Source: Candidatus Kapaibacterium sp. (GTDB taxonomy: Bacteria > Bacteroidota > Ignavibacteria > Kapaibacteriales > UBA2268). Taken from it: a DNA stretch of 64,000 bases. Shown piece by piece: positions 15,595 through 18,924 of the stretch. Both the position numbers and the translations under genes were made by a program. The DNA is taken from NCBI GenBank assembly GCA_013414795.1, contig CP058732.1, positions 670,501 through 734,500 on the forward strand, written 5' to 3'. The notes under the pieces were generated by a model, which did no database searches, was not told where the DNA came from, and was given only the letters and a program-made list of their open reading frames with translations. How positions within the stretch are numbered: position 1 is the stretch's first letter; every line of letters begins with the position of its first letter.

Positions 15595-16977
15595 CTACAT
15601 TCTTAATTTAGATATAAATTCTTCGATTTCTGGAATCCCACCTTGAAAGATAAGATATGCATTGGTTGGTTCTCTTTCGGTAATTTCACCAGCAATCGGT
15701 GTTAACATAATTTCTTTGACTTGCTCTGGGTTTGTGGTCTGCCCAAGCGTCCAGCAAAGTTTCATATATGCAGTTTCTGGAAGCATATTTTCTGCAGGCA
15801 CAACTCCGAGCGACATAATTTCCCGACCAGTTTCGTAAACATACATTTGAACATAGCCCCAAAGCGTTTGAACTGTCATAAGAATGAAAATGCCCTTCTC
15901 GTGGGCTTTTTTTAAAGCGGGATACAACTGGTTATTGACGTGTCCCAAACCACTACCAGCGATAACTATTCCTTTATAACCATTATCTATTAATGCCTCG
16001 ATGACGTCGGGCTTCATATTTGGATAATGATAAATCAATGCGACCTTTTCTTCGAATGTAATTTTTGCGTTAAAGGCTCTATCTTTGCGTCTTCGATTGT
16101 AATCTTTTCGTAACGGGGTGATTTTCTCCTTGCTTACAAGAGCAAGCGGAATATCCCCAATTGTTCGGAAAGTCGAACGATGGGAAGAATGCATTTTCCT
16201 AACTCTTGTGCCTCTATGCAACAAACCATAGGAATCGGAAACGGGACCAACAGCACAGACCGTAACCTCGGCAATGTCCGATTCGGAAGCGGTTTTGACG
16301 CTATAAATTAAATTTAAAGGAGCATCCGAGGCGGGTCGGTCGCTCGAACGTTGCGAACCAACCATAACAATGGGTATTGGCGGGTTTTGAATCATAAATG
16401 AAAGCAAGGAAGAAGTGAAATGCATTGTATCGGTACCGTGGGCAATAACAATTCCATGATAACCAGCCTCGATATCTCTTGCTACTGCGTTGGCAATTCC
16501 AATCCATTCCTTCGGACCAATATCCTCGCTCAACACGCTGTAAAGTTTTTCAGTGTGAAGATTACAAAAGTTGGTAATTTCTGGAATAAATTCGTAAAGT
16601 TCTTCTGGTTCAAAGGCTGGCACGACTGCACCAGTTCTATAGTCCAAACGGGAAGCGATTGTCCCACCAGTACTGTTCAATTTCACAGTTGGTTTCCTTG
16701 GGTCGTGTAATCTTTCCCTGAAGTTAGTTGTCGGCTTGGTTTCCTTTTGACCAAGTAATTCAATCGAAAGAATTTTGTCGACTTTTATTCCAACATTATA
16801 TCCATTTCGCAATTTCAAAACAATATGTCGGTCGTCCCCTTTTTGACTTCGAGGGAGAACAATCCCTACAAATTCAGTCTCTTGGGTCTTTAATTTAACT
16901 TCGCTCCAAACATCAATTCCGAAATTTTTCAATATTTCCAAAGCCAAGCCCTTATAGCCTCCTTCGACCAAATCCAT
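15595..16977 (-). CDS. gatD: Glutamyl-tRNA(Gln) amidotransferase subunit D (asparaginase-like)
   Basis: The ammonia-producing subunit of the GatDE amidotransferase, which converts Glu-tRNA(Gln) into Gln-tRNA(Gln). The 460-residue protein has an N-terminal beta-barrel region of about 95 residues typical of GatD and then an L-asparaginase fold. The nucleophile motif STGGTIAS holds T103, and HGTDTMHF holds T182 and D183. The N-terminal region and the gatE neighbour separate it from plain asparaginases. Its ATG directly follows the gatE stop (TAAATG). GatDE is known as the archaeal enzyme, while bacteria normally use GatCAB, so its presence here is unusual. Confidence 0.92.
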   Translation of the reverse strand: MDLVEGGYKGLALEILKNFGIDVWSEVKLKTQETEFVGIVLPRSQKGDDRHIVLKLRNGYNVGIKVDKILSIELLGQKETKPTTNFRERLHDPRKPTVKLNSTGGTIASRLDYRTGAVVPAFEPEELYEFIPEITNFCNLHTEKLYSVLSEDIGPKEWIGIANAVARDIEAGYHGIVIAHGTDTMHFTSSLLSFMIQNPPIPIVMVGSQRSSDRPASDAPLNLIYSVKTASESDIAEVTVCAVGPVSDSYGLLHRGTRVRKMHSSHRSTFRTIGDIPLALVSKEKITPLRKDYNRRRKDRAFNAKITFEEKVALIYHYPNMKPDVIEALIDNGYKGIVIAGSGLGHVNNQLYPALKKAHEKGIFILMTVQTLWGYVQMYVYETGREIMSLGVVPAENMLPETAYMKLCWTLGQTTNPEQVKEIMLTPIAGEITEREPTNAYLIFQGGIPEIEEFISKLRM

Positions 16978-18924
16978 TTATCTGTCCCAATTTTTCTCTA
17001 CAAACTGCTTAATCAAACCACCCTTTACACGACCTCGAAGTTGTTCCATTATCAAACTAATTGCAATCTCTTTAAGTTTGTCTGGATGGCGAATCACTGT
17101 GGTTTTAATCGTAACTTTTGCGTGATTAAATGCATTCAAAATTTCTTGTTCGTTTGCTGGGGAAAGCAAACTGGACAAATATTGCTCTTTCCCCTTAAGA
17201 ATAAGTTCCAAAGCATATTTAATACCATCATCAAGAATTTTCCCTTCTTGGTAAAATCGAAATATTTCCTTTACTTTTTCAACCGATAGTTCTTGAAGAT
17301 TGTATCCTCGCCTTTCAAGCCATTGAAATGAACCAATTAACACTTTCGCAACAAAGGGAGGCGACAATTCCAACTCTTTTGCCAACTCTTTTACCAATTG
17401 ATAATGCTTGGACAATGCAAGTTTCTTTGCTAACTCATCGGGTATTTGTTGTTCTTTGCACCATTTCATTCGTTGAGCAAAATCCTCTGGTTTTGTAATT
17501 TTTATTCTTTCAATGCGTGCTGGTTCAACTATTATGGTTGGCAGGTCTGTGTCTGGATACAATCGATTTGGTCCAGGCAAATATCTTTCGAAAGAAGTTG
17601 TTCCGTCGGGCAAGGCTTTCCTCGTTTCTGCGGGAATACCAAGAGTGGCTTCGTATGCTCGATTTGCAATTTCGTCTATTGCAATTTTGACATCATCACT
17701 GCTACCCCAGACAATTACGAAAGCATCTTCTTCGGTTGCACCAATAAATTTGATTGTTTTGTCAATTTCCTCTCGTGAAATAGTGTTGTCGATTATGTCG
17801 GAAGCAATTATGTTTGGTAAATCCGTCAAACAAGCAAGGACTCGAATGCGGTCGGAGAGTTCTTGTGCAAAAACAGAATACCTTTGTGTGTTCCATTTCA
17901 ACAAGCCAGCCCAGTGTGGTAGTAGAACACAATGAACCTCGTCGCCGTTTTCCAAAGCCCGAGCAATTGGGAAATAATTTGTATTTTTCAACACCTTATA
18001 TAAATTGTAAGTTCGGAAAGAAAATGTTTCGGGAGAAATTCCACGTTTGAACAACTCCGCTCGCAAGCGGAGAAGGTTCAACTGACGCACAACTTCATTG
18101 TAAGCCACAATAGGAATTTTTCGGATTTTATCAATTCCTTTAATTTCCATTCTTGTCCCATCGGTAATGCTGACACTCAAATCGAAGCGAAAGGCACCAC
18201 TCTCCCGACGAACTCTACCCGAAGCAAGCAAATAATTTCGAAGCAATTCGCAAAATTCCATTGCTTCGGTCGGTGTCTGCAATTCTGGTTTTGTAACAAT
18301 CTCTACAAGAGGAATGCCAAGTCTATCGGTGTAAAATGTTCTCTTGTGGTGCACATCATTAATTTTTCTGGCTGTGTCTTCTTCGAGAATTATTTCGCTG
18401 ATAGCAATGTCCTTCCCTTTGAATTTCACGCTTCCCTCAACACCAATAAGAGCAGACCTTTGAAATCCGCTTGGGACGCTCCCGTCGAGTTGATGCTTTC
18501 GAATTACATATATTTCGTCAACTGGTTTTGCATTGAAGATAAAACACAATTGCAAAGCAATATCCAAAGCCTCGTAATTAATTTCAAAAGGTGGTGTTTG
18601 GTCGAGGTCATAAGTACAAATTGTATCTCTATTAATTCGATAATGTATTTCCTTTCTTGTTCTGTATTCCATTAAAATAGAAGGGTCGATTTCTTCAGTC
18701 TCGCCAGGTGTTGGTCGCATTGTCCTAACAATCTCACTATGGAACTTGTTATTGTATGGTTGACCTGGGGCGGGACATCGACAAAACAGTTTTCGATTGG
18801 TTTCCAATTGCTGATGGAATTCAAATCCAGCACGAAAACCAAGAGCCTGGTAATCCGAATCGGTCATCTCATCGAAACTTTTTATCTTCTCAAAATTCAT
18901 TACGCCGATACTTGAAAAATTCAA
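16978..18924 (-). CDS. gatE: Glutamyl-tRNA(Gln) amidotransferase subunit E
   Basis: The tRNA-binding, kinase-like subunit of GatDE. The 648-residue protein has the GatB/GatE cradle domain first (LGFRAGFEFHQQLETNRKLFCRCP and the DGSVPSGFQRSALI loop). An inserted GAD domain like that of bacterial aspartyl-tRNA synthetase follows at about residues 275-400 and distinguishes GatE from GatB. A helical YqeY-like tail that reads the tRNA elbow completes it. A second in-frame ATG (residue 9) may be the real start. It is first in the gatE-gatD operon and divergent from the M20 dipeptidase gene. Confidence 0.92.
   Translation of the reverse strand: MNFSSIGVMNFEKIKSFDEMTDSDYQALGFRAGFEFHQQLETNRKLFCRCPAPGQPYNNKFHSEIVRTMRPTPGETEEIDPSILMEYRTRKEIHYRINRDTICTYDLDQTPPFEINYEALDIALQLCFIFNAKPVDEIYVIRKHQLDGSVPSGFQRSALIGVEGSVKFKGKDIAISEIILEEDTARKINDVHHKRTFYTDRLGIPLVEIVTKPELQTPTEAMEFCELLRNYLLASGRVRRESGAFRFDLSVSITDGTRMEIKGIDKIRKIPIVAYNEVVRQLNLLRLRAELFKRGISPETFSFRTYNLYKVLKNTNYFPIARALENGDEVHCVLLPHWAGLLKWNTQRYSVFAQELSDRIRVLACLTDLPNIIASDIIDNTISREEIDKTIKFIGATEEDAFVIVWGSSDDVKIAIDEIANRAYEATLGIPAETRKALPDGTTSFERYLPGPNRLYPDTDLPTIIVEPARIERIKITKPEDFAQRMKWCKEQQIPDELAKKLALSKHYQLVKELAKELELSPPFVAKVLIGSFQWLERRGYNLQELSVEKVKEIFRFYQEGKILDDGIKYALELILKGKEQYLSSLLSPANEQEILNAFNHAKVTIKTTVIRHPDKLKEIAISLIMEQLRGRVKGGLIKQFVEKNWDR

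Follow-up and report, generated by a model that had tools for sequence, protein, structure and literature searches.

A bacterial-clade GatDE amidotransferase in a Kapaibacterium genome that also encodes glutaminyl-tRNA synthetase

The GatDE amidotransferase divides its work between two subunits: GatD frees ammonia from an amide donor, whereas the activation and amidation of Glu-tRNA(Gln) fall to GatE. It has been described as an archaea-only enzyme (PMC9499178, PMC8007984), and it has been suggested that the adaptation of tRNA(Gln) to GatDE barred GlnRS from archaea (PMC9499178). In the window, a stretch of 64,000 nucleotides from a Candidatus Kapaibacterium sp. contig (CP058732.1), the initial annotation recognised an archaeal-type GatDE pair and pointed out that GatDE is known as the archaeal route to Gln-tRNA(Gln), which is still how the literature presents it. 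The locus raises the question of whether a bacterium really encodes this enzyme and, if so, what it does there and where it came from.

Both reading frames were intact, and the TAA stop of gatE abutted the ATG start of gatD (Table 1), as the initial annotation had described. The gatE frame comprises 648 aa counted from the TTG at 18924 and 640 aa from a likelier ATG near 18900; the TTG is probably too far upstream, since the alignment of relatives begins at the ATG. In profile searches, both proteins exceeded the curated equivalog cut-offs, GatE with 501.2 bits for NF003107 (cut-off, 456) and 427.1 bits for TIGR00134 (319.55), and GatD with 514.9 bits for NF003217 (310) and 514 bits for TIGR02153 (324). 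GatB models gave only 54–135 bits on the window GatE, every one far below its cut-off. GatD contained both asparaginase domains as well as GatD_N (63 bits), the domain that sets GatD apart from plain asparaginase. The catalytic residues of both subunits were present, including those of the asparaginase active site previously read in GatD, and were invariant in the aligned bacterial rows (GatD: 56/56, GatE: 62/62). The identity of the pair as GatDE is firm, and the claim of a true GatDE inside a bacterium holds. In the literature searched, which left out most subscription journals, no account of a bacterial GatDE turned up; because this search was limited and NCBI models would already label bacterial gatD and gatE genes, we claim no priority for bacterial GatDE.

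Table 1. Coordinates and family assignment of the two genes in the window
Gene	Product	Position	Strand	Models and structures	Residues kept (Mth numbering)
gatE	Glu-tRNA(Gln) amidotransferase subunit E	16978..18924	-	NF003107, TIGR00134; PDB 1ZQ1_C, 2D6F_C	H15/E157/E184
gatD	asparaginase-like amide-donor subunit D, 460 aa	15595..16977	-	NF003217; PF18195 (GatD_N), PF00710, PF17763	T101/T177/D178/K254

The nearest solved structures were the archaeal GatD and GatE in 1ZQ1 and 2D6F (E-values from 4e-124 to 1e-79). A fold search with the AlphaFold model of GatE (pLDDT 89.8, pTM 0.85) placed 1ZQ1_C and 2D6F at the top, followed by GatB structures. The GAD insertion attributed to GatE was only partly upheld: the region was visible when the protein was aligned with archaeal GatE, and also in the AlphaFold model, and weak AspRS fold matches were obtained, but Pfam GAD gave no match at E ≤ 0.001.

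The window genome is a single bacterial contig of 2,660,650 bases (97.65% complete), in which gatCAB, glnS and asnS were sought, as the initial annotation had proposed. Two class-Ic synthetases, a full-length GlnRS (571 aa, 783 bits) and a GluRS, are encoded along with AsnRS, AspRS and LysRS. A genome search found no amidase-family protein in the window genome and therefore no GatA. GatB was likewise absent from it: the GatE model, which also picks up GatB in bacterial control genomes, matched only the window gatE and a YqeY-like tail. The latter is a short YqeY-like ORF (L002, G000:C1:101933-102286) matching the tail domain of GatE and GatB. Because GlnRS is present, GatDE is not required as the sole route to Gln-tRNA(Gln), in contrast to the archaeal system, in which GatDE is the sole route, GlnRS is lacking and tRNA(Gln) carries A1:U72 and A73. 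Thus, the idea of a lineage-specific replacement does not hold for GlnRS, although GatDE may at most replace the absent GatCAB. GatCAB catalyses the same class of reaction, and GatB shares the GatB/GatE catalytic domain with GatE, whereas the window GatE belongs to a separate family by score and by tree. A comparable retention of an amidotransferase despite direct synthetases is described for Bdellovibrio, Deinococcus and Thermus, which have GatCAB beside GlnRS and AsnRS, and a Bdellovibrio AspRS is reported to recognise tRNA(Asn) (PMC4206432). The enzyme retained there is GatCAB, whereas that in the window genome is the Glu-specific GatDE.

We favour, with moderate confidence, the reading that the window pair is an active GatDE of a bacterial clade, auxiliary to GlnRS, that corrects Glu-tRNA(Gln) formed in error by GluRS, in place of the missing GatCAB; its catalytic activity, tRNA substrate and rescue role are what we infer from sequence. 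GatD would hydrolyse Gln or Asn to ammonia, and GatE would bind Glu-tRNA(Gln), phosphorylate the glutamyl group and amidate it to Gln-tRNA(Gln). GlnRS would probably remain the main route to Gln-tRNA(Gln) in the window cell, with GluRS forming Glu-tRNA(Gln) beside it and GatDE clearing that product.

The distribution of the pair bears on this reading. GatE scored over the cut-off in 30 of 396 phylum genomes sampled, all 30 of them in the window's class, where it was patchy; the GatE of one Melioribacteraceae record (L148) was identical to that of a class member (G116), which places Ignavibacteria/Melioribacteraceae within this class. Among the 80 loci kept from a scan of GTDB species, which used a deliberate bacterial/archaeal blend as the query and thus sampled both domains without being a census, bacterial GatE outside the phylum came from Calditrichota, Aminicenantes, Planctomycetota, Krumholzibacteriota and Fermentibacterota, the record titles naming Aminicenantes, Phycisphaerae/Planctomycetota, Krumholzibacteriota, Fermentibacteria/Aegiribacteria and Caldithrix. 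A single transfer into this one bacterium is not borne out, as the tree set the pair alongside numerous bacterial GatDE pairs from its own class, within a clade reaching other phyla; by the criterion of the initial annotation, the pair is ordinary for this group.

GlnRS accompanied GatDE in 45 of 51 GatDE-bearing bacteria. In the class, GlnRS was present in 27 and GatA in 22 of the 30 GatDE-bearing genomes; GlnRS was not found in G288 and G315, and only a fragment was found in G252. The corresponding counts for GlnRS and GatA were 18 and 8 among 21 further GatDE-bearing bacteria, one of which (G396) has a chromosome with apparent frameshifts. GatA was absent from 21/51 GatDE-bearing bacteria versus 4/50 GatDE-free genomes tested in the class. 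Within the class, GatDE was associated in raw counts with the presence of GlnRS (p = 0.011) and with the absence of GatA (Fisher p = 0.048), and neither association was confirmed in independent pairs, among which informative cases were too few. A replacement of GatCAB by GatDE was accordingly rejected as a conclusion from association, given the weak p value of 0.048 and the lack of support from independent pairs. Two MAGs assigned to Aegiribacteria and Fermentibacteria (G402 and G403; loci L181 and L186) had GatDE with neither GlnRS nor GatA found; GatDE could be their only route, or the MAGs could be incomplete. Among genomes of known high completeness, there was no case of reliance on GatDE alone.

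Four GlnRS-positive genomes (G370, G009, G140 and G338) had neither GatE nor GatA over the cut-off; therefore, rescue of Glu-tRNA(Gln) cannot be generally required. Mapped onto a tree of GluRS from 77 genomes of the class, GatDE required approximately 20 changes, compared with 7 for GatA and 4 for GlnRS. By this reconstruction, GatDE behaves as an accessory trait with volatile gains and losses, and the approximately 20 changes, together with its absence from G370 of the same genus, fit a dispensable auxiliary function. Bacterial GatDE is real, shared and apparently dispensable. GluRS itself was uninformative: Arg358, considered as a sign of a discriminating GluRS, was rejected because it was invariant everywhere, even in genomes obliged to use a non-discriminating GluRS, and no site in GluRS, convergent or otherwise, separated the amidotransferase-free genomes.

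Evolution within the window genus suggested a second explanation, namely that the pair is a once-useful backup that is being lost there under relaxed constraint and has little present function. The GatE stem of the genus is long (1.0–1.2 changes per site), and between the window genome (G000) and G358, GatE was only 59.5% identical, compared with 80.4% for GatD, 82.5% for GluRS and 90.7% for GlnRS. The corresponding values between G390 and G196 were 79.7%, 93.3%, 72.8% and 81.9%; on these pairwise identities, both subunits, above all GatE, have evolved faster in the window genus, which may signal decay. G370 lacks gatE while keeping GlnRS, and gatDE lies in a different genomic context in G358, whereas the M20-OPT gene pair of the window is conserved in both. 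However, neither of the two GatDE-bearing genomes shows a broken frame or a lost catalytic residue, and gatE is still under purifying selection in the genus, judging from a pN of 0.26 against a pS of 0.76 with zero stops. Ongoing loss is thus an unlikely account of the pair, and its retention as an auxiliary to GlnRS remains the preferred one.

Bacterial GatDE might instead act on a different substrate, such as another aminoacyl-tRNA, or in a non-translational amidation. Its strong co-occurrence with GlnRS, with no sign of exclusion, its accessory-like distribution and the clade-specific fixed differences seen in alignments of bacterial GatE and GatD speak for such a role. This possibility is nonetheless rather improbable, as every catalytic and Glu-AdT signature residue checked is conserved, the AlphaFold model of the window GatE retains the tRNA-binding tail, and no neighbour gene of bacterial gatED that might indicate another pathway is conserved beyond near relatives.

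The tRNA(Gln) genes offered a further explanation. The window genome has exactly two, which differ in architecture: tRNA(Gln)-UUG has A1:U72, as in archaea, and tRNA(Gln)-CUG has U1:A72, whereas both carry G73 in place of the archaeal A73. G73 is a determinant for bacterial GlnRS. One isoacceptor, UUG or CUG, might be charged via GluRS and GatDE and the other via GlnRS. The A1:U72 pair and the D-loop are the features that archaeal GatDE reads (PMC9499178), and the D-loop of tRNA-Gln(UUG) was longer in the window genome and G358. However, among the sampled tRNA(Gln) genes, A1:U72 occurred in only three GatDE-positive genomes (the window genome, G358 and G160) and also in the GatDE-negative G370 of the same genus; the loci concerned (L047 1501-1574, L083, L094 and L077) belong to the window genus and G160. 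The tRNA(Gln) read from all other sampled GatDE-positive genomes had the usual bacterial U1:A72. A link between GatDE and an archaeal-type A1:U72 tRNA(Gln)-UUG was rejected on this distribution, as was a link to the CUG isoacceptor, which also occurred in GatDE-negative and in GlnRS-negative genomes. No tRNA(Gln) gene accompanied gatED within the bacterial loci. With G73 retained in both tRNAs of the window genome, a division of labour between isoacceptors seems doubtful at best, and the rescue of mischarged tRNA beside GlnRS is again preferred. The bacterial clade, present in several phyla, nearly always with GlnRS and on a standard U1:A72 tRNA(Gln), shows that GatDE and GlnRS can share one cell, so that the proposed incompatibility between them becomes directly testable.

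The trees of GatE and GatD, which the initial annotation had called for, placed the bacterial genes in one clade at 100% support apart from archaea, bar one Heimdallarchaeota sister. Bacteria and archaea were split at 100% in a 79-row GatE tree. When GatB was added as the outgroup, the bacterial clade had 100/100 support and its sister, at 90/80, was a Heimdallarchaeota MAG (L222); the root separated this clade and the single Heimdall row from the other 19 of the 20 archaea. In the GatD tree, both the bacterial clade and its sister relation to L222 had 100/99 support; the deeper archaeal branching was a polytomy, compatible with a place either inside or outside the archaeal radiation. Gene order was gatE-gatD in bacterial loci with both genes and gatD-gatE in archaeal loci with both genes nearby, except in L222, where the two genes are divergent. 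The label archaeal-type is thus apt for the family and not for the lineage: the pair matches the enzymes of P. abyssi (1ZQ1) and M. thermautotrophicus (2D6F) in its two subunits, the order of their domains, their catalytic residues and the predicted fold of GatE, whereas its GatE is only 30–38% identical to archaeal GatE, its clade is its own, its gene order is inverted and it coexists with GlnRS. Archaeal DNA in the assembly, which a family described only from archaea might have suggested, is excluded by the bacterial clade, by a gene order absent from archaeal loci, and by the single 2.66 Mb bacterial contig along with further single-contig or closed genomes bearing GatDE (G132, G124, G295, CP054675 and CP070718).

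An ancient transfer from an Asgard-like source, transfer in the reverse direction and a very early divergence with inheritance from before LUCA are all possible origins compatible with these trees, and the bacterial clade adds data to the debate between LUCA and transfer. More tentatively than for the window pair itself, we propose that bacterial GatDE constitutes a deep lineage, unrecognised in the literature searched, that operates alongside GlnRS in translation quality or on an alternative substrate, can be dispensed with and moves horizontally; such a lineage would contradict the views that only archaea have GatDE and that GatDE and GlnRS are incompatible.

Archaea are described as being without GlnRS. 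L222 (Heimdallarchaeota archaeon 12F4_9, genome G417), with its bacterial-like divergent gatD and gatE, also has a gene scoring as GlnRS (675.8 bits), and contamination of this genome is possible. In the closed Phycisphaerales chromosome CP070718.1 (L171), gatD is broken into two overlapping frames, and of GlnRS just a C-terminal fragment was found, probably owing to sequencing indels. A very divergent GatE (33% identical to that of the window) lies on a long branch in L031 (G156), with a moderately divergent GatD. In two other loci, gatE is followed by (L009, 3366-4854) or located near (L020, 1-575) a divergent GatD approximately 53% identical to that of the window, rather than the usual adjacent one.
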